A stretch of 40,327 nucleotides of DNA, taken from the IMG/VR virus record IMGVR_UViG_3300020477_000060, positions 1-40,327 of that record; one strand, given 5' to 3'. Both the position numbers and the translations under genes were made by a program. Shown piece by piece: positions 3,601-40,036 of this stretch (position 1 is the first letter of the stretch; each line of letters starts with the position of its first letter). The notes under the pieces were generated by a model. It ran no database searches. It worked only from the letters and a program-made list of their open reading frames with translations, and had not been told where the DNA came from. The DNA comes from a virus.

Positions 3601-4399
3601 TGTTAGTTAGAGTTAAATTATCTGAAGCAATAGCAGTATCCTGAGCATCAACGTAAGCTTTAATTGCTTTTGCTGAAGCAAGGGTGTCATCACTTCCAGA
3701 AACTGAGGATAAATCAGCATCTATTGCACTCCCAGAAACCCCAGTATTTATAACAGGACTTGTAATTGTTTTGTTAGTAAGTTCTTGGCTTCCAGTTGTG
3801 GTAACAATAGTAGAACCAGAACCCATAGCTACTGAATCAACATAGCTTTTATTTGCGGCTTCGTTACTAACAGTAGGTGTATCTACTCCAAAAACTCTTT
3901 TATCGTTGCTGTCTATTTGAAGGTTATAGCGAGTGGAATCAGTTTCATCAATTGCAATACCTTCATTAGTTCTATCAATAGATTCTAATGCTAAAAATCT
4001 TGCTTGGTTGTTGGACTTATTAAGATCCGTATCAGTAAGGACAGAATCAGCACTAAAGGAAATCTCTGCGGTTGTTCTATTAGTTTGTCTATAAATTTTA
4101 AGAACTTGAGAAGAACTTAAGGTAGGAACACCATTAGTCACATAATTAGTAATATTTACATCACTATTAATAGTAATAGTTCCACCACTAGAATTACCAG
4201 TTAAGGTATATTCCACCTCTTGGACAGATCCACTATCACTAGGAACTCTATTTGTTGTGTTGTATTTACTTACACCATCATAAAGATGTTTACCACCTAC
4301 TGTGACTTTAATATTGCTGGTGTTATGTGTTACTGCATCAAAGGTGTACGCATAGGTGCGCCCATTAGCAGTTGCATGTTCATCGGATGAATAAGCCAT
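662..4399 (-). CDS. Tail fibre protein (T7 gp17-like N-terminus)
   Basis: 1245 residues. The first 140 or so match the T7 tail-fibre N-terminal domain that anchors the fibre to the tail: TYAYTFDAV, a V.V.GG.HLY strand, VLKIYRQTNRTTAEISFSA, then LTDTDLNKSNNQARFLALE. Residues about 200-350 hold degenerate repeats with the core SSVSGSDDT.xSAKA.K.YVD, probably a repetitive shaft. The remaining 900 residues are Gly/Ser/Thr-rich, beta-type and unrecognised; they should include the receptor-binding part. It is about twice the length of T7 gp17 (553 residues). It overlaps the stop of the gp16-like gene by one base and is followed immediately by the chaperone-like gene. The N-terminal assignment is firm; the receptor is unknown. 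Confidence 0.9.
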   Translation of the reverse strand: MAYSSDEHATANGRTYAYTFDAVTHNTSNIKVTVGGKHLYDGVSKYNTTNRVPSDSGSVQEVEYTLTGNSSGGTITINSDVNITNYVTNGVPTLSSSQVLKIYRQTNRTTAEISFSADSVLTDTDLNKSNNQARFLALESIDRTNEGIAIDETDSTRYNLQIDSNDKRVFGVDTPTVSNEAANKSYVDSVAMGSGSTIVTTTGSQELTNKTITSPVINTGVSGSAIDADLSSVSGSDDTLASAKAIKAYVDAQDTAIASDNLTLTNKTFDADGTGNSLTNVDVGNLKSGVLDTDISSVSGSDDTIPSAKAVKTYVDSSGLSIIDEDNMATDSATRPPSQQSVKAYVNSEDALMGYQGEPHIIPGVLYPSYVASGTSNKLLDGTTSHSGNFGTVQSDGRKYYYTNIAGSKPIKDPRIGGHFGSQRHKFKSIQLLEQETATHGSNIYSVDGREWLRFGSTNASYKNDSHGVSLHFGANVSGDFVEITGYFNALNIIVKTDASRGAITPRLNGTDQTAVDVYESAVTSPLGSRYVDAGSVVNVTFSSSISLGINTVKLTHGSTAGAETYGIELIAQDTTSTANRSKIQIPSQDVVSYGKKFTVSGTPHYNPFATNQAGTAVAIGNTTSHGSVATGWAGTGAGYFDDTLDTATSLGLSAWEQNSKYYRPVNGGRVVWWVNSSGSLKCSVNMMPPAGTSIGVSSATNTPEANSWTTQYQPLFSSTTIDHSQAEVAKTFHFREFGNGAANEGSTTSGTKQDASMLSSSADNIAYVMDDGTTSLFGESVQVGSTPYGMNHTNSDNLIIYVTFIGTGFSLELTANGNGLDHYDKYVDGVQVQDGDISRTANAIVRETLAQNLPYGTHVVKLQRGAETPDVFNEIYREFTFHQPKRPPIPEDAVVLCDYMLMADFVPQTATGLQYISKGVRRSDASRDCFYDGASVTGVDLTPSASYKGLGRVYLTTDGDGSPPSIVRIPSFGRGGIVGYASASDKATNINFKINGTLANGTTNYSHYHDGTAETDGTFTEYHADFLTGKFFGAVHKTEISSGGVELSEATASKQLSFECIDLVTPTHSSSHYQSFETPFLHELIGGDRNMEQTNLICTPDGRSWDEISRDTSYLGNSLLTASNDSNASDSETSANLFDQWRGAISTTPKRNYHNKHFAIAYDRVICLKDGQYQITSKGYAHTRTGDVGCIKVNGVRIAADYSPANYTYWHNSIVTNLQRGDYVQIEGKTHSSELPNLFQIEKV

Positions 4400-7300
4400 T
4401 AGTTAAGAAATGCTTGGTTTACTGAAGCTGGTTTTTGTCGTTGTTCACGATCAAATAATTTAAATTCTTGTATTCTCTGTCTCAACCTAGGGAATGTACG
4501 CAATAATCTTTTTTTACCTATCATTTTATGTTTCCGTAAAGTTCTCTCTATAAATAATCGTTGTTGTCCTTCTGGTCTATTTTTAAAAAGTTTTCTGTTT
4601 AGTGCTGGTTCTAGATATTTTTTATTTAACTCACCAGCAGTTTTAGCCCAGAAGTGTCTTTCTTCAGCAGTTAAAGCTATGGTGTCAGTACCAAACTTAC
4701 CCCTAACAATAAGGGATCTCCACCTAGAGGGTGGTTTTGATTGTACATTTAATTCTGTAATCTTCTTTAATAATAAAGACTTATCTTTTCGCCTTATAGG
4801 TACTGGTGACAAATATGCTTGAGCTACATGAAAATATTTATCGTCACCACTATTAAAAGTTGAGGATTTTACTGGTTCCCCTAAGTAATTTAAACGAGGC
4901 ATCAAATCACCAGTAAATCCTTTAGGTTTACCTAGTGCATGAATTGGACTTACTGGCCCCAAAATCCTTAATGCTTCTGGGTTTCTCTTATAGTAGTCAT
5001 TCCACAAGTCGGTATAGAAATCTGCTGATCCTGTTTGTCTTACAACTTTATCAAATGCTCTGGCTGAATCACCTCTTAATGCGGAATAAAAAGAAACAAT
5101 AGGGTTATAGGCATTAACAAGTTGCTTGAGTGCATCTTTCTTTCTTAAAGGGTCTTGTGAGAATACTGCTACTAAATTAGCGTAACCCCTTAACATTGCT
5201 TTATCTTCAGCAAGCGAATGTAATTGATAAACCCCTTGTGCTACAAGATCCATTAATTTGCTATTTAAAAAATCTCTTTCACCTTGTTCTAAGAATTTTG
5301 GATCATTATAAATTTTTACTAAATTATGAACATCTGCCGCCAACCCGAACATGGTTCCTATGGGGTCTAGTCTATTGAAAGGTACATAACCATCTTCTGT
5401 TACAAAAGCGTATGGAGTTACACCTTTTTCTAAAAGGTTCATACGTTGATTAAGATTCTGTGGTAACGATCCTGTGATCATTCCGTTTTCAGCTAAACTG
5501 TACGCATAACTGTACATAGCTACACCAGTAGCATTTTTAGCCAATGCAAGTTGTCTTGCTCTAGAACCTTTTGTAGCCAAATCTTTTAATGTTGTCCCTT
5601 CCATCATAAGATTAACTCCAGGTGTTCTCTCTCCAGTCCATTTAAGAATATTTAAAATAGTATTGTAAAATGGGATATACACCTGTCCTATCCCAAAGGG
5701 TAATACTTGTCTTGCTTTATCAAATGCTCTTGTTACAGGATTTTGTGCAGGGTCAGCAAATATGTTTCTTAAAGTTGCCTGTTGTGCTTCTAAATCTATA
5801 CCCTCTAAATCAGCATATTGTCTTAATTCATTGGGACTCATATTTCTAATTCTATTATAAGTCTCATTAAAAGCTTCTCGATTTAAGCTATTTTCTTTTA
5901 AGGCTTTTCTGGAGTATGCCCATGCTTGTGCATGTTTCTCCATGTTATAAGACAACCCTCTAAAAAATTCATCATTGGACAACAACAATCTTGAAGGAAG
6001 TCTGGTTGCAGTACCTACAAGATCAATAAAAGAACCGAAAGCACCCCCCACATTAAAATTCTCAGCAGTTATTACATTTCTTTGGGCAAGTTCTTGTTTA
6101 ACCCACATTTTATTTGATGTAGTATCTTTTTTAAAAGCATAAGCCATTGCATTCCAGCCTTCTGCCAAACCCATTTTCACACCATGAGCTAATGCAAATG
6201 ATTCACTTAATTCTACCCCATCACCTTTACCTCCAAATAATTTACCCATTGAATTAAGTGTTCCAGCAACTAATCTTTCTTCCAACATAGTACCTACAGC
6301 CATAATATTACCTGCACTATTAGCCATTGTACTATCAACACCACTAAGAATTCCGTTGATATATACTTGCAGAAGTCCTTGTTTAACTTTACCTCTAAAG
6401 GTAGGTTCATAACCTTTAGCTATTTTACTAGCCTTCTTTACTGAATCAGCATCATTTGCAAATCGTAACACTCTTTCTGCATCTTTTTGTATTGTCCCAA
6501 CACCGCCAAATGAATCTTGAAAGAACCTTACTTGTGCATCCTGTGCCGCTTTTGAACTAGAATCTATTTTAAGTGCATTTAATGCTCTACCAATTTCACT
6601 TTTAACTCCTAGTGCTTCTGATTGTATTCCTGCATGGATTGCCTTCTGTCTTTGGAATGCCATTTGTGTTCTGGTAATCCCATGATCTATATTGACCCCT
6701 CTAAATTCTGGAGCTACTTCATTCTTTGAAGCATACTCTGCTAATTCATATAATTTCTTTGCTGATTTCTGCATTAATATTTGTACTGCCACGGCATTCT
6801 CATGTAGCCTATCTACCCCCATGTAGGTTTTATTTATAAACTCTACAGTACCTAAAGAATTCTGAGCTAGGGATTTAACAAGTTTTTCTGCTTCTGATTT
6901 TGTCTTTTTGTGTGTTTTAGCACCAACTCTGGTTTTACCTGTTGCATCAGTTATTGTTTCAGTTGCACCAGTACCTAACCTGCCAAGCACACCTATGTCT
7001 TTAAATCTAGCTCCAATTTCAACAATGGCATTTCGTATCTGATTATCATCTTCAATGGTATTAATATTAAAATCCAAACCATCTGTATTTTTATTAAGAT
7101 AATCGTCAAACTCTACGTCACGTTTACCTAGTCCCTCTATGAATTCATCTGTGAATTGAGCAAATATTACTGGTTTACCATCCACATCCATTTTCACCCC
7201 TTCGTCTACTTGAGGTGACATACCTTCGTCTAGAGGATCTGTAATTAACTCATCAACATCTCTTAGTGTGTCTTCTTGAATAGCCTTCTGTGTTTTTCTT

Positions 7301-22246: not shown

Positions 22247-23970
22247 TAATGTGTCTCCATCCAAGAATTTCCAATTTTATATTCTCCATCCAGAGGACAT
22301 CTAAAATCGTAATATCGTTCTGTCTCAAAAATTTTCTCAACAAAACTTTTCCCTACTTCATCTAAATCTAGTTCTTCACTCACAGACACTTGTATTTCAT
22401 CATGCACCCAAAGGACTATCCTTGCTAATCCATTATAGGATTTTAAAATTTCATCATTAACTAAGGTTATCCATTTCTTACATAATATTGCCCCAGCAGA
22501 TTGTATTAAGAAATTAAGTGCAGAATGAGTAGATCGTACTGGTATGGGTCTACGATCCAAACCCCTTAAATAATTTTTATTTTCTAGCTTTTCAGCTATC
22601 TTAGAATTTAACTGTTTGAAACCATCAATATTCCGCATGAACTTATTTCTAAGTTTAGCACCCTCTTTTTTACCACCACCTACTATAGAACCTAATTTTT
22701 CTGATCCAGCACCATAAAGAAGTGCGTATATAAATGTCTTTGCTTGATCTCTAGTTTCTAAGCCAGCATATTTCTGGTTTACTGTATGGATGTCTCCTTC
22801 AACTATCTTTTTACCATAAGCACCACCATCCCAATTTGACATGTAGTGAGCAAGCACACGCAATTCTAAACCACTCATATCTATACCAATAAACTTACAT
22901 CCCTCATCTGGTATAAACAGTTCCCTGCATTCTTTACCAAATGGTGATCTAACTGCTGGTACTTGACCTAAATTAGGATGGGTATGAGTTGCCCTGCTGG
23001 TGTATGTACCTAAACTGTTTGTCCTGTTATGTATTCTATGACAATTACCTTCTTCTACTGCCAGTTTCAACCATGCTTGATTACCCTCTTTAAGTTGAGC
23101 AATTCTTTTTTGTATTAGAAGATAATCAGCTATTCTCTTAGAATCTTCTGTACCTATTTCTCTTAAAGTTGCTTCATCAACAATAGGATGTCCTAGTGGA
23201 GTAGTCTTAGAAGGTTTCCAACCTCTATCTATAAGGACTTTGGCAATGTGTTGTCTAGATCGGGGATTAAAATTAACTACCTTTATTTTTGTGTAATCAG
23301 CTTTTTTTCTGGTTCTACCATCACCATTACCTACAACCCAAGAACCAAAAGTTTTAGTTAAAACATCCTCATAACCAGATCGTTCTAAATACAACCTCTG
23401 TTCTAATTCACTTGCTTTTTTATGATTAAAATTTACCCCTACATGTCTCATATCAGAACATATATTTTGCATGGTATGTTCTAATTTTATTGCCCCCTTT
23501 AATTTACCATCTTTTGATCCTTCTTTTAATTTTTCCCACAGTTTAAAATTTAACTTTACATCATTGATACAATATTTTAACATCTCTTCAGAGAATTCAG
23601 CAAAGTTAGGACTTTCTGCTTTTAGAAAACCTAAATCTTTACCCCATGCTTCTAAAGCGTGTGATTCTCTAGTAGGATGAATAAGTCTACTAAATATTAA
23701 TGTATCATATATGCGACTTTTAGGAGTCCATTGATATAACTTATTAATAAACGGAATATCAAAGTCTATTATGTTGTGACCAATTAGAGCAAAAGCATTA
23801 TCTAGGTGTTCTATCCCCTCTTGAATTTGTTCCGGCCCAAAACTTTTAACTTCCCAAGTTTCGGTATCCATCGTAACAATGCAATGGATAACTTTGCCCT
23901 GTTCATAAAAGTTATCTGTCTCTATATCAAAAACTAGTTGTGTCTTCTTCGTCTTCAAAGACTTCCTCAT
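22246..23970 (-). CDS. DNA polymerase, family A (T7 gp5-like) without thioredoxin-binding loop
   Basis: Counted from the GTG at 24027 the frame has 593 residues; T7 gp5 has 704. The ATG at 23970 puts the start close to the exonuclease motif LVFDIETD (Asp34, Glu36 in the long numbering), as in T7. Exonuclease motif IGHNIIDFD and palm motifs follow: A GIDMSGLELR (381-390), B KTFIYALLYGAG with Lys430 and Tyr434 (the equivalent of T7 Tyr526), C VHDEIQVSV. Between FGSW (227-230) and FNPRSR (253-258) there are 22 residues where T7 has about 70: this is the thioredoxin-binding insertion, lost here. The longer GTG start has an AGGAG six bases upstream but overlaps the helicase gene by 101 bases. Confidence 0.93.
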   Translation of the reverse strand: MRKSLKTKKTQLVFDIETDNFYEQGKVIHCIVTMDTETWEVKSFGPEQIQEGIEHLDNAFALIGHNIIDFDIPFINKLYQWTPKSRIYDTLIFSRLIHPTRESHALEAWGKDLGFLKAESPNFAEFSEEMLKYCINDVKLNFKLWEKLKEGSKDGKLKGAIKLEHTMQNICSDMRHVGVNFNHKKASELEQRLYLERSGYEDVLTKTFGSWVVGNGDGRTRKKADYTKIKVVNFNPRSRQHIAKVLIDRGWKPSKTTPLGHPIVDEATLREIGTEDSKRIADYLLIQKRIAQLKEGNQAWLKLAVEEGNCHRIHNRTNSLGTYTSRATHTHPNLGQVPAVRSPFGKECRELFIPDEGCKFIGIDMSGLELRVLAHYMSNWDGGAYGKKIVEGDIHTVNQKYAGLETRDQAKTFIYALLYGAGSEKLGSIVGGGKKEGAKLRNKFMRNIDGFKQLNSKIAEKLENKNYLRGLDRRPIPVRSTHSALNFLIQSAGAILCKKWITLVNDEILKSYNGLARIVLWVHDEIQVSVSEELDLDEVGKSFVEKIFETERYYDFRCPLDGEYKIGNSWMETH

Positions 23971-25552
23971 CGAGGACTTCAAACATTCTCCCTGTTTCAT
24001 GTCTGTATCTAAGTTTCCCTGCTTCACCTTGTTCTCCTGAATATCTGTTTTTTAATACCCTTACAGTAGTAATGTCCCTATCATCCCCTTGTTGATCTCT
24101 TTCTAATCCAATTACCATGTCTGATAATTGAGCTATTGTTTGTGATCCTCTTAGATGACTGATACTTACTTGCCCTCCATCTTCATGCCCCCTACCATTA
24201 CTATTTCTTTTTAAATGCGATACTAAGAGCATTGCACATTGGGTTTCCTCAACAAACTCCCTAAGATTGGTCATGAGATTGTCAATTTTTCTTCTCTCAT
24301 CCCCTTCACTATCTCCTGAGATAACTATAGATATGTGGTCAAGGATAATTAAGTCACAATCCAACCCTTTAATGAAATACCTTAACTTACCAGTAAGTGA
24401 TTTGTCAGACCCCCAAGCTTTATCAAATACAATTTTTTCCCCTAAATTTATTTCCTCATAAAGCCTTTTCCACTCCTCAAAATCTATTGCTTCTTTTGAT
24501 ACTAAATGAAGTGGTTTATTCGCCTGAAGTGACATAATACCTAATGCTGACCTTCTGGTATTCTCTTCTAGTGCGTAATAAGCTACTTTCTTACCCTCTT
24601 TTATTGAATTAAATGCTACTTCTCTACAAAATTGAGATTTACCAATACCAGTACCAGCAGTTATGGTTACAATCTCTCCACATCTAATACCATGAGTCAT
24701 TTCATTTAACTTAGGGAAAGGATAAGGGATGCTGATGTCATCGTAATCTTTTATTACTTCTTCCCATATAGCATCACCTGTTACTACACCTTCTGGCTTG
24801 TAAGGTTTTGCATTATAAATTGCATTAACTAAATCTTGTGTTCTGTTTTGTGACAAAAGCTCATTAGCATCCTTTACTGGTAGTGTAGCTATACTACATT
24901 TTCCAGGTTTTATTAAAGGTGCTACCTCTAGTAGAGCATCCTGACCAGCTTCATCACTATCAAAACATAATATTACTGAAGGAAAACTATCTATGTATTC
25001 ATAGTTATCTTTTATGTTTTTTACTGCACCACCACATCCTTTAGTAATAGATACAACAGGTCGTGATAAATTAAATGCTTGTGCTATGGATAAACAATCT
25101 ATTTCACCTTCAGTTATTATTAGTGGTGCGTCCCACTTCTTGTTCGGTTCCCATACCCATTGTCCGTAGAGAATCGATGTGTTCCCCCTCCACTTGAACA
25201 CTTTGCTCTTGTCCCGAATCTTCTGGGCTATGACGATTCCGTTCTCCATATAATTTGCGATTTGTACGCTTTCCTCTCCTATAAATCCTTTCTGGTAATT
25301 GTAATGTCGGCATGTTTTCTCACTTATGTTTCTTCTGGTTAATTCAGTACACTCTCCAGTTACAAAATTAGTGTTTTCATACTTTGGTTCTTCTGCTATT
25401 ACTTGCCCTTCCATATCTCTCCTTTTTTTACATGAAAAACAGTAAGATGATCCATCATCATAAACTGCTTTGTTATCCCTACTACCACAAACTTCACAAG
25501 GTTCATGCCTTACAAAGTTTGCATCCCTATACTTCCTTGGTAACATCCTCAT
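23927..25552 (-). CDS. DNA primase-helicase (T7 gp4-like)
   Basis: 541 residues (T7 gp4A: 566). The N-terminal zinc finger has Cys19, Cys22, Cys38 and Cys41. TOPRIM primase motifs are ITEGEIDCLS (Glu148) and ILCFDSDEAG (Asp198, Asp200). The helicase Walker A is TAGTGIGKS (about 298-306) and the Walker B is LIILDHIS (Asp405), followed by LLVSHLKRN and the QLSDMVIGLERDQ region. The C-terminal tail is very acidic (EDEEDTTSF) and ends in Phe, the T7 gp4 feature that contacts the polymerase. The start overlaps the amidase-like gene by 26 bases. Confidence 0.95.
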   Translation of the reverse strand: MRMLPRKYRDANFVRHEPCEVCGSRDNKAVYDDGSSYCFSCKKRRDMEGQVIAEEPKYENTNFVTGECTELTRRNISEKTCRHYNYQKGFIGEESVQIANYMENGIVIAQKIRDKSKVFKWRGNTSILYGQWVWEPNKKWDAPLIITEGEIDCLSIAQAFNLSRPVVSITKGCGGAVKNIKDNYEYIDSFPSVILCFDSDEAGQDALLEVAPLIKPGKCSIATLPVKDANELLSQNRTQDLVNAIYNAKPYKPEGVVTGDAIWEEVIKDYDDISIPYPFPKLNEMTHGIRCGEIVTITAGTGIGKSQFCREVAFNSIKEGKKVAYYALEENTRRSALGIMSLQANKPLHLVSKEAIDFEEWKRLYEEINLGEKIVFDKAWGSDKSLTGKLRYFIKGLDCDLIILDHISIVISGDSEGDERRKIDNLMTNLREFVEETQCAMLLVSHLKRNSNGRGHEDGGQVSISHLRGSQTIAQLSDMVIGLERDQQGDDRDITTVRVLKNRYSGEQGEAGKLRYRHETGRMFEVLDEEVFEDEEDTTSF

Positions 25553-26045
25553 ACCTATTCGGGTCCAACATAAGAAACCTTAATTTTTTGTACTCCACTA
25601 CATCCAAGTAAGGTTTTTCATCTAAAGACAAATGATTTTGACTAGTAACTTCTGCATCTGGATAAAAACCTTTTACATAAGTAAGTAGTCTCACTAATGC
25701 TTCTAGTTGTTCATCAAAATAACTTTGGAATGTTCCTAAACCCTCTGTATTTCTACCACCACACAAACATATACCTACAGAGACATCATCATACCCCCAT
25801 GTATGGCAACCATGTTCTTCAAGTTCTCTCCCTTTTTGTATTTCACCAAATTTGTTTATTAAAAAATGATAACCTGCTTTAGTCCAACCTAATCCTCTAT
25901 GAAGTTTATCAATGTCTTTTATGTTTAGTAGTTTATCTGGTTTTGTATCGGTACAAGTGACAATTATGTGATCAGTTTGCTTCCTCTTTTTTAGGTTCAC
26001 TAAACCATGAGGTAGGTATTCTTTTATTTGCGTAGATAAATCCAT
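25527..26045 (-). CDS. Amidase-fold protein (T7 gp3.5 lysozyme-like) lacking zinc ligands
   Basis: 172 residues (T7 gp3.5: 151). The match to T7 lysozyme is clear: THIIVTC.DTKP region, GWTKAGYHFLI (catalytic Tyr46 equivalent = Tyr59), GRELEEHGCHTWGYDDVSVG, GICLCGG. However, all three zinc ligands are replaced: T7 His17 by Thr30, His122 by Gln136 and Cys130 by Lys144; Lys128 becomes Asp142. The C-terminal alignment is gap-free over 33 residues, so this is not an alignment artefact. It should not cleave peptidoglycan. In T7 the same protein binds RNA polymerase and represses it, and that role may be what is kept. The first 20 residues overlap the endonuclease gene. Confidence 0.85.
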   Translation of the reverse strand: MDLSTQIKEYLPHGLVNLKKRKQTDHIIVTCTDTKPDKLLNIKDIDKLHRGLGWTKAGYHFLINKFGEIQKGRELEEHGCHTWGYDDVSVGICLCGGRNTEGLGTFQSYFDEQLEALVRLLTYVKGFYPDAEVTSQNHLSLDEKPYLDVVEYKKLRFLMLDPNRYEDVTKEV

Positions 26046-26427
26046 GCTTTTCGGCCCATTGCTGATTTGTCCTTGTTGATCCTTGGTAAGTTTGTTTTAT
26101 ATTTGCAAAGACAAACCTTAAATCAATATTTGGATTTTGTTTTTTAAAGTTTTCATATTTTCTCCTAGCTTCTGCTCTTAGAAAACCTTTTAATTCTACA
26201 TAGATACCATTTGGTAGGATTAAGTCAGGTGTATAAGAAGTAGGGATGTAAACAAAAAACTTTTTAGGTTCGTATTTCCATCCCTTTTGTTTAATTGATG
26301 TTATTACTTCTTCTTCAAACTTGGATCTAAAAATCGTCTTCTTCTTCTGAGAAGATTTTTTGACCTTCGTTTTCCGTTTGCCCTTGTTCCCATTCAAATC
26401 CCTCTTCTTCTTCAAAGTCGAATCCAT
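25972..26427 (-). CDS. Endonuclease I, Holliday-junction resolvase (T7 gp3-like)
   Basis: 151 residues (T7 gp3: 149). FRSKFEEEVITSIKQKG, YTPDLILPNGIYVELKG (catalytic Asp, Glu, Lys of the PD-(D/E)XK fold) and RFVFANIKQTYQGS match the family, as does EKHGFIYANKRIPTSWF. The N-terminal 30 residues are almost all Lys, Arg and Asn and are read out of frame through the acidic 3' end of the SSB gene (101-base overlap), so translation may begin later. In T7 it resolves branched DNA before packaging and breaks host DNA. Confidence 0.92.
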   Translation of the reverse strand: MDSTLKKKRDLNGNKGKRKTKVKKSSQKKKTIFRSKFEEEVITSIKQKGWKYEPKKFFVYIPTSYTPDLILPNGIYVELKGFLRAEARRKYENFKKQNPNIDLRFVFANIKQTYQGSTRTNQQWAEKHGFIYANKRIPTSWFSEPKKEEAN

Positions 26428-26932
26428 CTGAATTTGCTGAATATGGAACTAAGTTAATAACTTGTACTGCCATAGGTGACAGTGTTACACCACAACCATT
26501 ACCTGCTACGTTCCAAGGACGAACTTTATAGGCAATTTTAACTACTGAACCATTACCAACTGCAAAATTAGGATCAGTTATTGGTGTACCTTTAGCATCG
26601 AAAATAGCAGGTTTTTGTCTCACAACATCCCCCTTTCTAGTTTCGTACTTTGCTTTCATTTTAAACCTGAAGGAAACACCATCCTCTTGACCTTCATCAT
26701 CAATAAAAGTCTTATAAGGTGGTTTAGCCTTTTTAGGTTTTTTACCATCTTTGGTGTTTTCTTTTACTGCTTCAGTTATGTGAGCATCTATAACTCCCTT
26801 AAACTGTTCAGCTTCTTCTCCACGAAGAATCAACTCTCCTTCATATAAACCAACTGCATCAAACCTTGTGTCGGGTTTGACTATTTTTAAATAACGTGCA
26901 GTACCCTTTGGTGTTTTTGCTAATTTACTCAT
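26327..26932 (-). CDS. Single-stranded DNA-binding protein (T7 gp2.5-like)
   Basis: 201 residues (T7 gp2.5: 232). It begins MSKLAKTPKGTARYLKIVKP and has an OB-type central domain with RPWNVAGNGCGVTLSPMAVQ. The C-terminal tail is highly acidic and ends EEEDDF; an acidic tail with a terminal Phe is the T7 gp2.5 hallmark used to contact polymerase and helicase. It follows the RNA polymerase gene by seven bases. Confidence 0.92.
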   Translation of the reverse strand: MSKLAKTPKGTARYLKIVKPDTRFDAVGLYEGELILRGEEAEQFKGVIDAHITEAVKENTKDGKKPKKAKPPYKTFIDDEGQEDGVSFRFKMKAKYETRKGDVVRQKPAIFDAKGTPITDPNFAVGNGSVVKIAYKVRPWNVAGNGCGVTLSPMAVQVINLVPYSANSDGFDFEEEEGFEWEQGQTENEGQKIFSEEEDDF

Positions 26933-26938
26933 AATTTT

Positions 26939-29407
26939 CTATGCGAAAAAGAAAGGTGAATCTCTCACCATGTTAATATCCAAGTCTCCCTTCATGGGTG
27001 GACTAGGTAATGCTCCTTCTGGTACTACCATTGAAGCATCTCTGAGAAACTCATCACAAACATCCCAACTGTTGTACATTTCAACAAAGGACTCTCGTAA
27101 GAGTTTCTGCATTAATGGCATTTGTGCCACTAATGATCCGTAGGAATCATGAATCATTGTTACTTGATTTAATCCTTGATCCCTGCATTTCTTTAAAGTG
27201 AGTGTTAGATGACTTGCATCAAGACTATGTATTAGATTTGGTGGAGTTGCGTTACCTACTTTCCAGCTATCTTGCTTATTACCTACTGGTGTTCCTTGGA
27301 TGTGTGCCATTATTAATTTACCATCCAGAACTGTTTTAATTTTTCTTGATCTAACCTCTGGGTAATTTTGGACTACTACAAAACCACTAGGTGTTCTCCA
27401 TTGAACAGGTACTCCCTTTGCTATAACTTTCCTTGATACTTCTTTAATCCATTGCATACCAATAGTTGCCGCTTTTACTTTTTCTTCTAATGCTTTCTTT
27501 ATTGGTGTAACTAACCATCTTGATTCTTTAAAAGCATCAGCAACTCTTTTACCACTTTTGAAAGGCCAATATTCCCCAGTATTTTCCACTACATAACTAT
27601 TTAGATACTCTGTGTACATGTGACTAGTTCCACCATAGGGAAATGTCATAACTATTTTCTTCAACATCTTCCTATTAATTAAACTACTCTCTAACCAATC
27701 TCTTGCTAGTGGTTCATTGGAATTCTTTAGCTCATCTATAACTGCATCGGCAACTTGCTGGTACAAATCCTGTGGTTTATCTGTTTCGGTGAGATTACAA
27801 TAAAAACCTGTCTCAGCATCACTTAGAATAGCTGAATAATGTTGAATACCATTTTGTGAACCATCTGTGTGTATCCAATAATTTGATTTATAACCTAATC
27901 CATTATTTTTGTATTTTTTCCATTCCTTGCAGAACGCTAAAAATTGCCAAGGTTCATCTGCTTCTGTCCAAAACTTACAATCAAAAGGATGCTTAGAACT
28001 TTCTAAAATTGCTGGTGTGTTATGCTCTACCCATCCTACTCTTTGTTTTATTGAAGCTTTATCAAAACCATATAAATTTGCTCCTGCAACTGCTAGAGCA
28101 TCCACTTGATCTTGTTCTGTAACAGGCATTCCTACTGCACTTTGTAAAAGTGACTTAGACCAATCTGGACCCTGTGGATGTAAGAAGTTGTGCATGAGGT
28201 AATATCTACCTCTGTAATCACATTGGGCTACATAGTTAAATCTTTTGTGTTGCATTAAATCCTTTGCCATTTGCAAACCCCTGACAAACTGCAACCTTCT
28301 AGAGTAAATCTGATTGTTTTTCCTCATTAACATGGCATAAGGTTTAGCCCACTCATCCCATATTATTTTTTGTTCATCTGTTAATGTTTTTTTAGGTGTG
28401 CCAGGAAAAGGACATTGTGGTAATTGGTAAGGATCTCTAGTAGGTATTCCTTCCCAAGAATCCCCACTTTCATAAGCTCTTTCCATTACCTGAAACATAG
28501 AAGTATTTATACTGAATTCAGTTTGTTGCATTTGGTTCAATGCTTCATAAACCAAAGGCATTTCTACATTGTCTAAATCTTGATATCCAGATTTCTTGTG
28601 TAGCTTAATTGCTCTCAAACCTTTTAAATGACTAGTGTAATAACCACCACCTAGTGTTTTCTCTTGCCAATCCCTAGGTGTTACAACACAAGGCATGTAT
28701 TGAGTTGCAATCTTCTCTTTATGTTTCTCAAGTTTTTCAATCCAATCAATTGCTGATGGATTAGCTACAACCATATTTATGGTTTTCTTTTTATTTACAT
28801 AATTAGGTATTATGTTTATAAGTCCTGTTTCTCTATGAATTAGGTGAATTAAAATTTTACCCAACATGACCTTATCGGCATCATCCAACGTAAGTTCATG
28901 TAAATTTAATTCTGTTTTTCTAGAGAGTAGCCAAGTCATAGCATTTTTCTTGCGATACCTTGGGTTTCTTTTCTGATGCTCTGACTCTAAGACTTTCTTA
29001 AAATAATTTGGATTCTCTGCACGGAAAATACGCAACCTATATTCATCTTGTATAGAATTACCTATAGTTCTGGCAACTCTCATTTCAGGATGTTGTTGTG
29101 AAATGCTATCTAAAGTACAAATCAATGCTAGGTAGGCTATTGTTTCATCTTCTAGTCTTAAAGAATCAACAACATCTATTAGGTGAGTAGCGTATGCTGG
29201 ATGTCCTTTTATTCTCCTTAGTTTCCAATTATAAAAAGCAGTAGCTACTGGTTGTACTGCTTCTGACATAATAAAACGTACAGAGGGGAGTCTAGTCCAT
29301 GACTCTGAATTCTTCGCATCTTGTGAACCCCTCTGGTAACGCTTTTGACCTATGCGTTTACCTTCTAGTTCAAGGCTTAACTGCTTTTCCAGTACGTTTT
29401 GATACAT
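26939..29407 (-). CDS. Single-subunit DNA-directed RNA polymerase (T7 gp1-like)
   Basis: 822 residues (T7: 883). Catalytic residues are in place: Asp515 in HTDGSQNGIQHYSAILSD (T7 Asp537), Arg579, Lys583 and Tyr591 in INRKMLKKIVMTFPYGG (T7 Arg627, Lys631, Tyr639), and Asp754 in MIHDSYGS (T7 Asp812). The protein ends SPFFFA, keeping the C-terminal Phe-Ala foot. The promoter-specificity region (about 690-710, KTVLDGKLIMAHIQGTPVG) differs from T7, so its promoter cannot be read from T7 rules. Its start overlaps the zinc-ribbon gene by 38 bases. A host-type promoter at 31456-31484 is the likely driver of this gene block. Confidence 0.97.
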   Translation of the reverse strand: MYQNVLEKQLSLELEGKRIGQKRYQRGSQDAKNSESWTRLPSVRFIMSEAVQPVATAFYNWKLRRIKGHPAYATHLIDVVDSLRLEDETIAYLALICTLDSISQQHPEMRVARTIGNSIQDEYRLRIFRAENPNYFKKVLESEHQKRNPRYRKKNAMTWLLSRKTELNLHELTLDDADKVMLGKILIHLIHRETGLINIIPNYVNKKKTINMVVANPSAIDWIEKLEKHKEKIATQYMPCVVTPRDWQEKTLGGGYYTSHLKGLRAIKLHKKSGYQDLDNVEMPLVYEALNQMQQTEFSINTSMFQVMERAYESGDSWEGIPTRDPYQLPQCPFPGTPKKTLTDEQKIIWDEWAKPYAMLMRKNNQIYSRRLQFVRGLQMAKDLMQHKRFNYVAQCDYRGRYYLMHNFLHPQGPDWSKSLLQSAVGMPVTEQDQVDALAVAGANLYGFDKASIKQRVGWVEHNTPAILESSKHPFDCKFWTEADEPWQFLAFCKEWKKYKNNGLGYKSNYWIHTDGSQNGIQHYSAILSDAETGFYCNLTETDKPQDLYQQVADAVIDELKNSNEPLARDWLESSLINRKMLKKIVMTFPYGGTSHMYTEYLNSYVVENTGEYWPFKSGKRVADAFKESRWLVTPIKKALEEKVKAATIGMQWIKEVSRKVIAKGVPVQWRTPSGFVVVQNYPEVRSRKIKTVLDGKLIMAHIQGTPVGNKQDSWKVGNATPPNLIHSLDASHLTLTLKKCRDQGLNQVTMIHDSYGSLVAQMPLMQKLLRESFVEMYNSWDVCDEFLRDASMVVPEGALPSPPMKGDLDINMVRDSPFFFA

Positions 29408-29591
29408 ATATCCCTAACTTCCTGTCTAGGATAAGCTCATCCGTTACTTTTAACGATTCTACTTCTAATTGCACTCTTGCAATTGCTATATACTTATTAC
29501 TACAAGAGCATTCAATAATACTACTACCAGAATGTTCCCTGTGTTCTATGTGTCTTTTACCACAATGAGGACACTTACTTTCTACTCTCAT
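29370..29591 (-). CDS. Small zinc-ribbon protein, unknown
   Basis: 73 residues starting MRVESKCPHCGKRHIEHREH; the pair CPHC and the pair C-S-C at residues 28-30 with intervening His residues suggest a zinc ribbon, followed by a beta-type domain (KYIAIARVQLEVESLKV). It is the gene just upstream of the RNA polymerase and overlaps its start. Its stop-start neighbour is the Na/Pi transporter (29591). A nucleic-acid-binding role is possible but unproven. Confidence 0.65.
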   Translation of the reverse strand: MRVESKCPHCGKRHIEHREHSGSSIIECSCSNKYIAIARVQLEVESLKVTDELILDRKLGIYVSKRTGKAVKP

Positions 29592-30070
29592 TAAAACCTT
29601 CCTATTAACTTAGATATTTGATTAACAAAAGGTAATAAACATATTGCCATTAATGTGTTAACTCCTGTGTGTACAATAGCAACTTGTTTAGTTATTCCTG
29701 TTGGCATACCATCTGATACAAGTAATCCTGCCAACCATATAGTTCCAGTAGTACCTATATTAGCCCCAAGTATACAAGCAATAGCAGAAGGTAAAGGTAA
29801 GATGCCACTAGCAACTAAACCAATTATAGCAGTTGTACTTAGTGAACTAGATTGCCAAAGTAACGTACACACAATCCCCCCGATAAACATATAATATGGG
29901 TTAGACATAAAGTATTTAAGTTGTTCTACATCACCTAAAGACTTCATGCCACTAGCAAACATTTTTAAACCTATGTAGAACACAACTAATCCAACAACTA
30001 TACTTACAACTGGACTATCCAATAGTAGTTTCCTCATATACTGCTGGTTTAAAGTTTCTGTCATAGTCAT
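29591..30070 (-). CDS. Na+/phosphate cotransporter, single-repeat (PF02690-like)
   Basis: 159 residues, about four or five membrane segments. The repeat signature of the NptA/PNaS family is unmistakable: GLVVFYIGLKMFASGMKSLG, then WQSSSLSTTAIIGLVASGIL with the QSSS motif (73-76), LGANIGTTGT (101-110) and HTGVNTLMAICLLPF. Cellular proteins carry two such repeats (often plus a PhoU domain) in about 300-550 residues; this one has one repeat and would have to work as a dimer or modify a host carrier. ATGs at 30070, 30064 and 30037 are possible; an AGGA five bases before 30064 favours that one. It looks host-derived, an auxiliary metabolic gene for phosphate uptake. Confidence 0.88.
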   Translation of the reverse strand: MTMTETLNQQYMRKLLLDSPVVSIVVGLVVFYIGLKMFASGMKSLGDVEQLKYFMSNPYYMFIGGIVCTLLWQSSSLSTTAIIGLVASGILPLPSAIACILGANIGTTGTIWLAGLLVSDGMPTGITKQVAIVHTGVNTLMAICLLPFVNQISKLIGRF

Positions 30071-30362
30071 CCTGTTCTTCTTTTTTTATAAACAGTTCCC
30101 TTTGCTTATCATGTATCATCTGTACACACGCAGAATAACCAGCAAGATCAACTAAGTTGTCTTCTTTATGTCTGTACACTTCTCTGGCTATTTTCATACC
30201 TGCTAACATAAGTGCTACTTTCTCTGGTGGTACTGCATCTGTATCTAGTATGACACCCCAAATAGTTCCTATTCTTTCACAATTATCTAATGGGTGATCA
30301 TAACTCCATTGTCTATCACCATTAACTAATCGTTCTGCTTGTTGATTAACTGACTCTTTCAT
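30015..30362 (-). CDS. DUF6378-like conserved phage protein
   Basis: 115 residues. A GDRQWSYDHPLDNCERIGTI start and a VALMLAGMKIAREVYRHKED...DLAGYSACVQ core match the small all-helical phage family (R..YG.......iW, K.aR, D..iD.aGY) that I know as DUF6378. No biochemical function is established. It overlaps the transporter start by about 50 bases and the upstream gene end by 17. Confidence 0.75.
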   Translation of the reverse strand: MKESVNQQAERLVNGDRQWSYDHPLDNCERIGTIWGVILDTDAVPPEKVALMLAGMKIAREVYRHKEDNLVDLAGYSACVQMIHDKQRELFIKKEEQDDYDRNFKPAVYEETTIG

Positions 30363-30636: not shown

Positions 30637-31126
30637 AGTGTCCTCCTATAAATTTTTTACCTTTATTAGGTGCTTCTCTTTCTCTTAATGATTCTACTTC
30701 ACCATCTAATCCATGATAAAGTGCAGTTAGTTGTCTCATAAACTGCTTTTCATACTTAGCTACTTCATTTTCTGCTACAAACTTATGTTTAATTTCACCA
30801 TCAACTAATACATCTACTCTCTTTTTACCTTTGTTAAGTGGTGATCTACCCTTACAAGACTTTAAATGATTCTCTCTTCTCTTTTTGTCATACTTGAGCA
30901 TCCTTTTATAAGCAATAGGTTGATACTCTTTTTGTAAACAACCACAACTCTTAGTATTTAACTGTACAACTGCTTGATGGTATACCTTAGTGTAGTTACC
31001 GCAATCACACCTATATACATTAATTCTATGTCCAAATTTATCTCTATGAGAGAATCTAACCATAGTAAGTCTACTACCATCTATTTTACCAGTAAGTTGC
31101 CCTTTATCCTTCACCATGTTCTTCAT
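30629..31126 (-). CDS. Zinc-binding DNA-associated protein (CxCG...SCGC type)
   Basis: 165 residues. The N-terminal 60 read GKIDGSRLTMVRFSHRDKFG...YRCDCGNYTKVY...TKSCGCLQ: paired CDCG and CGC cysteines of the small zinc domain frequently found in phage homing-endonuclease-like (AP2/HNH) proteins. The rest is basic (RMLKYDKKRRENHLKSCKGR) with no HNH catalytic residues that I can see. Likely binds DNA; a free-standing nuclease is not supported. Confidence 0.6.
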   Translation of the reverse strand: MKNMVKDKGQLTGKIDGSRLTMVRFSHRDKFGHRINVYRCDCGNYTKVYHQAVVQLNTKSCGCLQKEYQPIAYKRMLKYDKKRRENHLKSCKGRSPLNKGKKRVDVLVDGEIKHKFVAENEVAKYEKQFMRQLTALYHGLDGEVESLREREAPNKGKKFIGGHYV

Positions 31127-31376
31127 TTGTAAGAGAATCTACTTTACAAATACCATGTCTCCTAACACTATCAAAAGTCCAAGAGTAAACTTTAGCGTAT
31201 TCTTCACCAGCAACTAGTTTTCTACTAAATGAATCACTTAATGAAGATAGTTTTTTTATTGTACCACCATTATTTTTATAAGCTTCTATTGCTTTATTTA
31301 ACTCATCTCTGGAAATTTCATTAACTTTAGATTTCCAATGATGTGCTAATGCCCTTGAAGCAAAAGTATTTCTCAT
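31104..31376 (-). CDS. Hypothetical protein, first gene after the host-type promoter
   Basis: 90 residues: basic N-terminus MRNTFASRALAHHWKSKVNE, then DELNKAIEAYKNNGGTIKKL, a helix-turn pattern also common in small cyanophage proteins. Function unknown. It is the first gene after the predicted promoter at 31456-31484 and would head the RNA polymerase operon, the place of early host-takeover genes in T7-like phages. Confidence 0.6.
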   Translation of the reverse strand: MRNTFASRALAHHWKSKVNEISRDELNKAIEAYKNNGGTIKKLSSLSDSFSRKLVAGEEYAKVYSWTFDSVRRHGICKVDSLTNEEHGEG

Positions 31377-31736: not shown

Positions 31737-32312
31737 CTACATAATGTTTAGTGCTTCAGCTTTATTAAGTGCATCCTCTGCACTTATATTTAAATAAAGA
31801 CTTGTTGAAGCAACATTACTATGTCCCAGTAGTTGCCTACAAGTCTCAATATCTCTAGTTTCCCTATAAACAAGATAAGGTTTTGTCCTTCGCAAGCTAT
31901 GACTACTGTATAGTTCCCAATCTAATCCAGCAGAATAAGCAATATCTTTTACAATATTTCTATATTGTGGTGCTGAAATAGGTTTAAGATTGCCAGTTTT
32001 CGGGCAAGCTTTTCTACTTGGGAATAAAGGGTCATCGTGCTGGAGTTTTCGGGCATGAAGATAATTGCGAACTAGATCCATAGTGTAATCTGACAATCGA
32101 CAATTAACTTTTCTAGATGTCTTCTTTTGCTTAACTTCTAGATTTTTTCGGATTCTTCCATGAACATCTACAATATCACTTACTCTTAAAGCAATAAGAT
32201 CACAACATCTAAGGCATGTATCAACATGAACACAAAAGAGAAGTTGATTCCTACCAATAAGTTTATTTCTAATAGAATGAATTTGCTCTTTTGTGAAAGG
32301 TTGCTTTTGCAT
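31737..32312 (-). CDS. int: Tyrosine recombinase / integrase (catalytic domain only)
   Basis: 191 residues. The catalytic set is visible: Arg35 in DTCLRCCDLIALR, His138 and Arg141 in HSLRRTK, His164 in QLLGHSN, and nucleophile Tyr173 in STSLYLN. There is no N-terminal arm-binding or full core-binding domain, so it is shorter than lambda-type integrases (about 350 residues). Pelagiphages of the HTVC019P type carry an integrase at this place, upstream of the RNA polymerase, and integrate into host tRNA genes; no tRNA-derived attP core was recognised here. It has its own host-type promoter (32417-32444), and five of the six AGTTTTCGGG copies lie in or just upstream of it. Confidence 0.92.
   Translation of the reverse strand: MQKQPFTKEQIHSIRNKLIGRNQLLFCVHVDTCLRCCDLIALRVSDIVDVHGRIRKNLEVKQKKTSRKVNCRLSDYTMDLVRNYLHARKLQHDDPLFPSRKACPKTGNLKPISAPQYRNIVKDIAYSAGLDWELYSSHSLRRTKPYLVYRETRDIETCRQLLGHSNVASTSLYLNISAEDALNKAEALNIM
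31995..32004 (+). repeat. AGTTTTCGGG repeat, copy 2
   Basis: Exact copy inside the integrase gene. It encodes part of ACPKTG, a different reading frame from copy 3 (ARKL), so the conservation is not due to shared protein sequence. Confidence 0.8.
32044..32053 (+). repeat. AGTTTTCGGG repeat, copy 3
   Basis: Exact copy inside the integrase gene, followed by CAT as in copy 6. The extended consensus is AGTTTTCGGGCA. Confidence 0.8.
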
Positions 32313-36226: not shown

Positions 36227-37930
36227 TTAATGATTCATAGTATTAATATAATTATAACTAACCTCACCTAAACTTCCCTTCTTAGCTATACTAGCACCAG
36301 CCCCATCAATAAACTTCTCCAGTTCCCTATCTAATGCTTCTTGTTTTTGTCTTCCTGTTTCATCCTGCTGGTCAGCACTCATTTGTTCTACCCAGTAACC
36401 TACTGCCATTGCTAAAGCATCAACTCTATCATCATGTCTTAAAGAACCTCTATCCCTAGTTATCCTTGTCATTTGATACAACAACATCTTCCTTAAGGAA
36501 TCCTCTGCAACATACTCTTTAGTTGAGTTGTAATCATCATTAATAACCTTTGGGTCAATAATAAGCCTGTGTTGCATCATTACTGGTTCTAAAATATCTA
36601 TTATTCTTCTTTCTTTTTGTGTAGTGCTACGCACCTCTTCAACATCAACAGGATAAATACGTCTTAGGTGTGGTTTCAGCAACTCACTAAACATCCCATC
36701 ACCAAAATTACTCTCAGTAATAATAAGATTAACTTTGTAAGCTTTCGCTAGGGTTGCAAGTGTCTTCATGGTGTCATCACTATAACCCCCTTGAAAACCT
36801 CCAGCTTTACAAAGATAAAGATTACCATTAAGCATCTTCACTATTGCATAAGCAGTTTCATCCTTTCCTCTACCACTAGGATCAACACTCATAACTGAAC
36901 CAGTAAACTCCTCCCATCCACTAGGTAGATCCAAGGGACCATACCAACCATCCCCAGCAAGTCCCACATTAGGTAAGTCAGTTAGTTTTGTATGATTAAG
37001 TTTTCCTGCAATGACTTCTTGTGGTCCCTTCTCTTGAGGGATGTCCATAACTACAAGATCATGTAGCTTAAGAGGATACCTGTCAGCATCCGATAAGCTG
37101 GTATCCAGCATGAACTGTAAACTAAAACCTGCTCTCCCATAACTTAATTCCCTTTCCTCAAGATCGTACTTATCAAATCTATCTGGATCTGTAGGATCTC
37201 CTACCTCTCCCTTATGATTATGTATGTAGTCACTAAGCCTTGCCCCATACCTTTCCTTCAGTTTTTCATCGGGAACCCTAGCACACCATATCTTTAACTC
37301 ATAACCTCTGTCAGGGAGTACTTCATAGAGTGTTTGTTCACTTTGTGGAGTTCCTAAAAATATAATTCTTCCACTTGGTTTTAATATGGCATCAAATTCT
37401 TTAACACTTTCAGCAATACGATCCCTCATACCTTGGGTCATACTGTTATTTGGTACTTCTACATCATCAGCAATAATTAAGTCAGCACGACTACCTGCCA
37501 TTTGACCACTTATACCCACACTTTTTACAGATGGTGCGTGAGCAGGGGTAGAAGGGCCGACATCGAAAGAAATTTTAGAGTGCCTCTGGTGGTCCCGTGA
37601 CTTTAAAAAGTTCAGCACAGGCATTTCTAAGATCAATCTCTGGGTAAATGTGCTAAAGTCATCACTTCTTATCTTACTTGCACTCACAACTAAGATTTTA
37701 GTCTCAGGATCTTTAAGGAGACAATAACAACAATATGCAGAGGTGATGTAACTTTTACCTATTCCTCTAAATGCTTCAATGACTAGTCTTCTAGGACCAT
37801 CCTCAAGGTATGTAGCTATATCTTGTTGGATTGGTGTAGGAGAAGGGAGGTGCAGGTGCTTCCAGACATGTGTAAGGAAGAGGGGGAACGTAAGTCTATT
37901 TAGTAGTTCTGCTTCAGTTGCAGGATTCAA
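36227..37930 (-). CDS. terL: Terminase large subunit (T7 gp19-like)
   Basis: 567 residues (T7 gp19: 586). ATPase Walker A is EAFRGIGKS (about 52-60) and Walker B is ADLIIADDVE (about 155-164), with the coupling motif GRIIFLGTPQSEQTLYE. The C-terminal nuclease shows SVDPSGRGKDETAYAIVKML and the acidic LIITESNFGDG. It packages concatemeric DNA through the portal. It overlaps the small subunit gene by 17 bases. The end of the gene borders the palindromic non-coding region. Confidence 0.96.
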   Translation of the reverse strand: MNPATEAELLNRLTFPLFLTHVWKHLHLPSPTPIQQDIATYLEDGPRRLVIEAFRGIGKSYITSAYCCYCLLKDPETKILVVSASKIRSDDFSTFTQRLILEMPVLNFLKSRDHQRHSKISFDVGPSTPAHAPSVKSVGISGQMAGSRADLIIADDVEVPNNSMTQGMRDRIAESVKEFDAILKPSGRIIFLGTPQSEQTLYEVLPDRGYELKIWCARVPDEKLKERYGARLSDYIHNHKGEVGDPTDPDRFDKYDLEERELSYGRAGFSLQFMLDTSLSDADRYPLKLHDLVVMDIPQEKGPQEVIAGKLNHTKLTDLPNVGLAGDGWYGPLDLPSGWEEFTGSVMSVDPSGRGKDETAYAIVKMLNGNLYLCKAGGFQGGYSDDTMKTLATLAKAYKVNLIITESNFGDGMFSELLKPHLRRIYPVDVEEVRSTTQKERRIIDILEPVMMQHRLIIDPKVINDDYNSTKEYVAEDSLRKMLLYQMTRITRDRGSLRHDDRVDALAMAVGYWVEQMSADQQDETGRQKQEALDRELEKFIDGAGASIAKKGSLGEVSYNYINTMNH

Positions 37931-38156
37931 CAGACTCAGGAGGTGGTAATGATTCTAGGAGGTTTTTTAATGGACTATCTTCTACTGGAGAAGCTTCTAT
38001 ATGATTATCTCTAAGGAATTGTCTGGCAACATTAAGATCACCAGCAGTTGCTTCACCACTACGAACTCTATTTAAAAGTTCTTGTGTAAGAACTGTATGA
38101 AGTGACTCTAAACCTAGGCTATTTTTTTCCATGTTCACTAATAACTCCAAATCCAA
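37914..38156 (-). CDS. terS: Terminase small subunit (T7 gp18-like)
   Basis: 80 residues (T7 gp18: 89). LHTVLTQELLNRVRSGEATA followed by GDLNVARQFLRDNHIEASPV is the typical helical pattern of T7-type small terminases, with an acidic/Pro end (SPLKNLLESLPPPE). Overlaps the peptidase gene upstream and terL downstream. It recognises DNA and regulates the large subunit. Confidence 0.88.
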   Translation of the reverse strand: MDLELLVNMEKNSLGLESLHTVLTQELLNRVRSGEATAGDLNVARQFLRDNHIEASPVEDSPLKNLLESLPPPESVESCN

Positions 38157-38524
38157 GGACGAGGTTTACTCATATTAGGTATCAGCATGTCTAAATGAAG
38201 GAATCTTTTACTGTGATCCCCTTTTTGTGACACACCAATACCTGTCATCCCATGTTTAATGGCAAGTTCAACTACTTTAAAAGCATCACCACCATTAACA
38301 ACTACATCTACTGCTCTACCAGTAGTATGTGGACCAGTTAAACCACTACTAGACACTTCATCATTGTATTCAGGACATCTATAACCACTTGAAACAATTA
38401 ATGGTTTGCCTAATTCAACCCTAATGGTTTCTAATGCTTCCATGAACTCAGGAACCATTTTACAATCACCAGAACCCTTACATTTCATCTCATTTTCTGA
38501 GAAATGATCTGTAATCATCCCCAT
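38138..38524 (-). CDS. M15-family peptidase, endolysin candidate
   Basis: 128 residues of the Peptidase_M15 (VanY/D-Ala-D-Ala carboxypeptidase-like) fold. SSGYRCPEYN, then GPHTTGRAVDVVV with zinc ligands His66 and Asp73, and FLHLDM with His110, are all intact. Such small M15 proteins are known endolysins that cut peptide cross-links. It sits next to the holin candidate and terminase. Because the gp3.5-like protein seems inactive, this enzyme and the SleB-like hydrolase are the best candidates for lysis. The start overlaps the upstream gene by ten bases. Confidence 0.9.
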   Translation of the reverse strand: MGMITDHFSENEMKCKGSGDCKMVPEFMEALETIRVELGKPLIVSSGYRCPEYNDEVSSSGLTGPHTTGRAVDVVVNGGDAFKVVELAIKHGMTGIGVSQKGDHSKRFLHLDMLIPNMSKPRPWIWSY

Positions 38525-39234: not shown

Positions 39235-39536
39235 TTTTGTTGTTTAATTAATTCTCTAATAGCTTGAGTATTTTGCTCTAGTGCTATTTTTATTGACATA
39301 ATAGCATCTGAAGATTTTTCAACAAGTTGCATTATTTTAGCATCATTCTCTGCATCTTTTTTCCAAAATTCTTCTCGTTCTTTTCTAGATTGATCAGTTG
39401 TGTATTTAATAAACCAGAAAGAAGCTATAATAACACAAGCAGGGATGCCAAGATCCATTACCATACTATATAAAGTATTTACTTCAGGCATAGGCATAGG
39501 TTTTCCGTGAATATATTGATAATCTGCTGGATTCAT
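39231..39536 (-). CDS. Membrane protein with coiled-coil tail, holin- or spanin-like
   Basis: 101 residues: polar start, one membrane segment (LGIPACVIIASFWFIKY, about 30-46), then a long charged helix (TTDQSRKEREEFWKKDAEND ... ALEQNTQAIRELIKQQK). The layout resembles BhlA-like holins or an inner-membrane spanin. ATG overlaps the SleB-like stop (ATGA). The partial gene at 1-125 is a variant with the same layout. Function inferred from topology and neighbours. Confidence 0.65.
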   Translation of the reverse strand: MNPADYQYIHGKPMPMPEVNTLYSMVMDLGIPACVIIASFWFIKYTTDQSRKEREEFWKKDAENDAKIMQLVEKSSDAIMSIKIALEQNTQAIRELIKQQK

Positions 39537-40030
39537 CTATAAAATATGTGGTGGTCAATTTGAAGTGTTCTACGTTTAGTTTTATTCCATTTTGGAGAAA
39601 CATAATTAGCATGATAAAACAATGCACCATCAGTAAGGTCAGGTAACCATTTATTAGACACAATCAACCATTGGGCTATTTCGGTTGATTTATTATATGC
39701 TAAAACATTTGTAGGTTCATCATCTTTACCATCACAATACCAAGAAAATTGACAACGATTTTTACTGGGAAATCCATTGCGATGAATTCCTTGATAAACA
39801 ACACTACAAATATTAGAAGGGAAAAATTCAGATTTTACTCTATTTAAAACAACTTGACCTACTGCTATTTGTCCAGCCGTACTCTCATTTCTTGATTCAT
39901 GGTATATATTAAGAGAAAGGCAACGTAGTTCATCAGCTTTAAAAAAATTGACTGCACTTTTTACTGTTAAGTAAGAAAAAACAAGTGCTGGCAGTATTAA
40001 AAGTGTTTTGAGTAAAGTTCCTATAAGCCA
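39533..40030 (-). CDS. SleB-like cell wall hydrolase (Hydrolase_2), no standard start codon
   Basis: About 165 residues with an N-terminal membrane segment (LLILPALVFSYLTVKSAV) then CLSLNIYHESRNESTAGQIA, VGQVVLNRVKSE, NICSVVYQG and RCQFSWYCDGK: the SleB/Hydrolase_2 signature with the glutamate in YHESRNE. The frame begins after the double stop TAATAA of the preceding gene and has no ATG, GTG or TTG before the domain. An ATG at 40031-40029 is one base out of frame. A one-base sequence difference or a non-standard start (for example CTG at 39994) must be assumed. The stop overlaps the next gene as ATGA. The left-end variant locus lacks this gene. Confidence 0.7.
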   Translation of the reverse strand, partial: WLIGTLLKTLLILPALVFSYLTVKSAVNFFKADELRCLSLNIYHESRNESTAGQIAVGQVVLNRVKSEFFPSNICSVVYQGIHRNGFPSKNRCQFSWYCDGKDDEPTNVLAYNKSTEIAQWLIVSNKWLPDLTDGALFYHANYVSPKWNKTKRRTLQIDHHIFYR

Positions 40031-40036
40031 TTTTTA

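Follow-up and report, generated by a model that had tools for sequence, protein, structure and literature searches.

Why would a T7-like phage keep a homolog of T7 lysozyme (gp3.5) that has lost every zinc ligand of its amidase site? The question is raised by IMG/VR virus record IMGVR_UViG_3300020477_000060, a stretch of 40,327 bases that we analyzed at its full length and refer to as the window. Its 172-residue gp3.5 homolog (Table 1) matches the T7 lysozyme structures in sequence (1aro, E = 1.3e-20; 1lba, E = 6e-20), as well as Pfam Amidase_2 (4.6e-10) and PHROG 822, labeled "amidase" (5.8e-32), scores that place its homology to T7 lysozyme far above chance level. The surrounding genes follow the T7 order of RNA polymerase (RNAP), gp2.5, endonuclease I (EndoI), gp3.5, primase, and DNA polymerase, and the placement of gp3.5 between EndoI and primase is kept across all lineages that carry the gene, with extra genes ahead of the primase in Votkovvirus. 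The closest named phages are pelagiphages, at 60 to 80% nucleotide identity confined to short stretches.

Table 1. Window features that bear on the gp3.5 homolog and on lysis (positions in the window).
Feature	Position	Strand	Evidence
gp3.5 homolog (predicted pseudo-amidase), 172 aa	25527..26045	-	Sequence and profile matches; conserved in 7 relatives
Codon of Thr30 (T7 His17 zinc ligand)	25956..25958	-	Alignment; Thr in 8/8 clade members
Codon of Tyr59 (T7 Tyr46, catalytic)	25869..25871	-	Alignment; Cys or Val in 7 relatives
Codon of Gln136 (T7 His122 zinc ligand)	25638..25640	-	Alignment; Gln in 8/8
Codon of Lys144 (T7 Cys130 zinc ligand)	25614..25616	-	Alignment; Lys in 8/8
74-base overlap, gp3.5 N-terminal extension within EndoI 3' end	25972..26045	-	EndoI synonymous changes fewer inside
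Endonuclease I (T7 gp3 homolog)	25972..26427	-	Pfam Phage_endo_I 3e-29
ssDNA-binding protein (T7 gp2.5 homolog)	26327..26932	-	Profile matches (Pfam, PHROG)
Single-subunit RNA polymerase, 822 aa, presumed gp3.5 partner	26939..29407	-	Profile matches (Pfam, PHROG)
Primase-helicase (T7 gp4 homolog), overlapping gp3.5 3' end	23927..25552	-	Profile matches (Pfam, PHROG)
Small terminase subunit, adjoining M15 gene	37914..38156	-	Profile match
M15 peptidase, likely endolysin	38138..38524	-	Pfam Peptidase_M15_3 7.8e-15; PHROG 894 endolysin
SleB-type cell-wall hydrolase (Hydrolase_2) open frame, start uncertain	39533..40033	-	E 1e-27

When the window protein is aligned with T7 lysozyme, the zinc ligands His17, His122, and Cys130 correspond to Thr30, Gln136, and Lys144, as an earlier sequence-only reading of this DNA had claimed, and the same triplet recurs in all seven of the window's closest relatives. 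Other details of that reading need correction. The alignment it described as gap-free has a small gap near window residues 100 to 110. Its replacement of Lys128 by Asp is seen in the window (Asp142), but the assignment of Asp or Glu to this position depends on the alignment, the relatives having one extra residue before Lys144. The catalytic Tyr46, said to remain, does so in the window (Tyr59) but is Cys in six of the seven relatives and Val in the other. Because eight sequences with intact frames agree on Thr/Gln/Lys, we rejected chance and sequencing error as sources of the ligand loss. Y46F abolishes the amidase activity of T7 lysozyme, and C160S leaves the zinc site of PGRP-LB empty (PMC8124813). 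With all three ligands gone in eight phages and the catalytic Tyr not conserved, the earlier designation as a pseudo-amidase holds: judged by its residues, the window protein is a T7-lysozyme pseudoenzyme, with the fold predicted to be kept and the zinc site gone, and the loss of its amidase activity is near certain. Without the zinc site, it cannot be the T7-type zinc amidase of lysis.

A hydrolase that is still active, using a different metal site or no metal at all, might draw on Cys31, His49, His60, His78, and His81, all of which are invariant within the eight sequences of the clade. Only His78 is new relative to T7, however, and the other four occur in T7 lysozyme, where they are not ligands of zinc. 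Given also the unconserved catalytic Tyr and the intact M15 endolysin in the genome, we regard continued hydrolysis as exceedingly improbable.

The clade consists of the window and seven IMG/VR contigs found by RNAP search, whose RNAPs are ~80% identical to that of the window. Searching IMG/VR with the window gp3.5 protein alone found no relatives, and a search by primase returned unrelated phages without EndoI. In all seven contigs, gp3.5 is full-length and 66 to 72% identical to the window protein. Over residues 26 to 148, pairwise dN/dS of gp3.5 is 0.27 to 0.33 between the window and its relatives and 0.12 to 0.49 among the seven relatives (mostly 0.12 to 0.30, with the highest values at small distances), compared with 0.04 to 0.14 for RNAP. 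gp3.5 is under purifying selection, weaker than that on RNAP. Its faster evolution would fit a decaying remnant heading for loss, as would the absence of the gene from Foussvirus and the missing C-terminal helix of gp3.5 in Votkovvirus. Such a fate is nevertheless very unlikely in view of the purifying selection, the synonymous-site constraint in the overlap with EndoI described below, and the intact frames in every sequence read from four lineages with complete ligand loss (n = 33).

The gp3.5 start sits 74 bases inside EndoI, and the protein is ~12 residues longer than T7 lysozyme at the N terminus. EndoI synonymous changes amount to 0.07 to 0.19 within the overlap versus 0.23 to 0.33 outside it, on small counts, which is consistent with both frames being translated. 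A GTG at gp3.5 codon 16, conserved in all clade members, is a possible alternative start. In the Votkovvirus S28C10, a homologous N-terminal extension is required to include the first strand. The annotated lysozyme/amidase start in this record (L041, AP013540; 31159-31557) is too late, as are those of HTVC200P and HTVC119P (L048 and L049, near 4001-4411). All three frames are open upstream into EndoI and, when extended, take in the first strand, with Asp in place of His17.

How far the loss of the zinc site reaches beyond this clade can be seen from the ligand positions in marine relatives. We aligned the gp3.5 homologs of T7-like isolates and IMG/VR contigs, keeping redundant sequences (no dereplication) and leaving out of the residue survey eleven HTVC019P-group sequences whose translated start fell on a stop. 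The His/Tyr/His/Cys set is intact in T7, KP32, PPPL-1, ICP3, HTVC168P, HTVC011P, HTVC025P, S30C28, EXVC018P, and KM23C739, plus some 15 contigs of greater distance. Partial loss, in which His122 to Cys or Cys130 to Ser is joined by Tyr46 to Phe, is common in Pelagivirus. Tyr46 to Phe is the sole change in 32 sequences and accompanies Cys130 to Ser in 49, and His122 to Cys, mostly combined with Tyr46 to Phe, occurs in about 64. The resulting His/Cys/Cys variants might still bind zinc. Complete loss is seen in at least four lineages with differing replacement residues: the window clade (n = 8, Thr/Gln/Lys), Votkovvirus including isolates HTVC200P and HTVC119P (n = 5, Asp or Arg at His17, C terminus truncated), the roseophage CRP-118 group (n = 16, Asp/Arg/Gly), and a fourth lineage, L237-L240 (n = 4, Cys/Leu/Glu). 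Foussvirus relatives have no gp3.5 gene, and none lies between EndoI and primase in HTVC134P, HTVC309P, and S46C10; a family search of the whole record found gp3.5 absent from HTVC134P and S46C10 as well. This recurrence across marine Autographiviridae, as read from the residues, goes beyond what had been proposed for the window itself.

In gp3.5 trees with the active-site columns masked, each complete-loss lineage forms a separate clade with a support of 100, and the intact HTVC168P is nested among decayed Pelagiviruses, although several deep nodes have a support of only 69 to 91. The RNAP tree splits the window clade, Votkovvirus, and Pelagivirus likewise. Provided that ligands are never regained, this placement requires several independent losses, with the caveat of gene exchange into the HTVC168P lineage. 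The lineages resemble the window to different degrees. Pelagivirus gp3.5 (HTVC168P, HTVC019P, and HTVC109P) shares the gene and its position, with graded active-site decay and a separate GH24 endolysin, but retains His17 and, in most cases, at least one of the remaining two ligands, is fully intact in HTVC168P, and is annotated without an N-terminal extension of this kind. Votkovvirus gp3.5 (HTVC200P, HTVC119P, and S28C10) shares the loss of three ligands and an N-terminal extension inside EndoI and differs in its Asp or Arg at His17 and its truncated C terminus. The CRP-118 group likewise lacks all three ligands but has Asp/Arg/Gly in their place, keeps Tyr46, and has a CHAP protein as its likely endolysin.

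With the fold retained and the zinc site lost, gp3.5 would no longer serve as the lytic amidase, and lysis would have shifted to the M15 endolysin, whose gene in the late cluster adjoins those of the terminase. The sequence-only reading had assigned lysis to both M15 and SleB enzymes, of which the first fits the clade and the second does not. The M15 protein contains the motif residues HTTGRAVD and HLD and is 86 to 90% identical in three relatives, those with contigs spanning the terminase region; for relative L010, a search of 40 kb of its contig matched no terminase, and its missing M15 carries no information. It is therefore the M15 endolysin that likely performs lysis in the window. The SleB frame was found in this phage and in none of its relatives, has two stops just upstream, and contains no ATG, GTG, or TTG within its first 121 codons, so that its start or frame is uncertain. 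Restricted to the window and without a standard start, it cannot account for a clade-wide loss of the zinc site, and we ruled it out as the clade's replacement lysin.

GH24 lysozymes are present in HTVC168P, HTVC019P, HTVC021P, HTVC105P, HTVC109P, HTVC200P, and HTVC119P, and the CHAP protein of CRP-118 is encoded in the late cluster, one gene away from direct contact with maturase A. GH24 was searched for without success in T7, ICP3, HTVC011P, S30C28, EXVC018P, HTVC025P, and KM23C739, all with intact sites, and M15, SleB, and CHAP were likewise not found in those of the seven that were searched for them. In seven of eight intact-site genomes, no M15, GH24, or CHAP enzyme was found, the exception being HTVC168P with its second lysin, whereas most decayed genomes examined contain another wall hydrolase of these three types. 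No known hydrolase was found in the decayed S28C10, and the search of the L239 genome was limited to GH24. As the genomes are phylogenetically non-independent, we give these counts without a p-value.

If lysis is performed elsewhere, what is gp3.5 kept for? Because the gene is kept next to the replication genes and under purifying selection, the second function of T7 gp3.5 is the one most likely to have been retained. Inhibition of T7 RNAP by lysozyme does not require zinc, and the RNAP-binding region comprises residues 2 to 52 (PMC5445346). Four further T7-like phage lysozymes inhibit their own RNAP, with the N terminus tuning inhibition (PMC10138996). Given that zinc is not needed and that these other lysozymes act in the same way, a zinc-free gp3.5 is most simply an RNAP regulator. 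The window phage encodes a T7-type RNAP, as judged by profile matches, and by analogy with T7 biology gp3.5 would bind it, restraining transcription when replication and packaging take over. Compared with T7 lysozyme (PDB: 1LBA and 1ARO), the window shares the sequence, the inferred fold, the EndoI–primase gene order, and a single-subunit RNAP, but its gp3.5 is without zinc ligands, its clade is without a conserved catalytic Tyr, and it has a 12-residue N-terminal extension overlapping EndoI, Leu at Arg3, and a separate M15 endolysin. We consider RNAP inhibition the best explanation for the retained role of the zinc-free protein, with a confidence slightly better than even. It is plausible that the regulatory half of a two-function protein survives in the window phage, as the earlier reading had suggested.

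Some features speak against RNAP inhibition. Arg3 of T7 lysozyme, which influences that inhibition, corresponds to Leu15 in the window protein, and the N terminus is extended by 12 residues. The T7 RNAP contact positions are conserved in no marine RNAP, whether the site of the paired gp3.5 is intact or decayed, and the RNAP 720s loop is shortened across all marine relatives. The ratio of N-terminal to C-terminal conservation in gp3.5 is 0.61 in the window clade versus 0.39 to 0.70 in intact groups and gives no signal. In a mirror-tree comparison over 66 Pelagivirus-type loci, the partial correlation between gp3.5 and RNAP is 0.59 but vanishes within subgroups; hence, this value reflects the split between groups. 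The existence of Foussvirus without gp3.5 further indicates that such regulation is dispensable in some phages. An unconserved T7 interface could also accompany a new target unrelated to RNAP, either another phage replication protein (EndoI, primase, or polymerase) or a host protein. The N-terminal extension, which is new and conserved, would fit such a change, and within Pelagivirus subgroups gp3.5 distances track EndoI or primase no worse than RNAP. However, linked, co-transcribed genes share their history, which makes this correlation weak evidence, and with no positive lead toward any specific partner we think a new target rather unlikely. In Fussvirus-type phages, the RNAP is annotated as two genes (L022 3432-6051, L024 4336-6955, and L025 1-2931).

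Alternatively, the window protein could be a zinc-free binder of peptidoglycan or muropeptides that times or aids lysis or shields the wall. The model here is the non-catalytic animal PGRPs (PGRP-SA and PGRP-LC), which belong to the same superfamily, have the Amidase_2 fold without zinc, and are of a family found among the sequence matches of gp3.5. We take PGRP-SA His42 and Ser158 to be the equivalents of T7 His17 and Cys130. Although without the same ligands, non-catalytic PGRPs still bind peptidoglycan (PMC8124813 and PMC515366). Unlike the window clade, these eukaryotic immune receptors keep the Tyr (PMC8124813), which is Cys or Val in seven of the eight clade members, and the Ser/His dyad with which PGRP-SA acts as a carboxypeptidase (PMC515366) is replaced by Thr/Lys in the window. 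The gp3.5 gene, moreover, lies within the replication cluster and outside the late lysis cluster, and we judge a role as a wall binder to be unlikely.

Returning to RNAP regulation, the same split of functions probably arose several times in marine T7-like phages. The full proposal, that marine gp3.5 shed its amidase several times independently, turning into a dedicated RNAP regulator while lysis passed to unrelated late endolysins (M15, GH24, and CHAP), has in our estimate an even chance of being correct. Many marine T7-like phages, including SAR11 and Roseobacter isolates, carry a gene whose annotation reads lysozyme or amidase but whose residues rule out an amidase of the T7 type, and we found no paper in the open-access literature that describes zinc-site loss in marine gp3.5. 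If RNAP control is retained, these genes would be naturally occurring separation-of-function alleles of a protein known from textbooks for its two functions. They might then supply expression systems with RNAP inhibitors that are not toxic, and would reveal the gp3.5 function worth retaining once lysis moves elsewhere.

The window also holds several minor features on the minus strand. A 159-residue protein between RNAP and the early genes (29591-30070) matches a Na/Pi cotransporter (PF02690, 1.9e-17) and is possibly a phosphate-related, host-derived gene. A 115-residue protein (30015-30362) matches phosphofructokinase-labeled PHROGs (5e-22) but is very short, which makes the label doubtful. 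An early protein of 90 residues (31104-31376) resembles the RNAP-binding domain of SutA (PF20661) weakly, at a sub-threshold 3e-4, and is a candidate effector of host RNAP. Finally, like many pelagiphages, the window phage encodes the catalytic domain of a tyrosine integrase (PF00589), here in a 191-residue frame (31737-32312).
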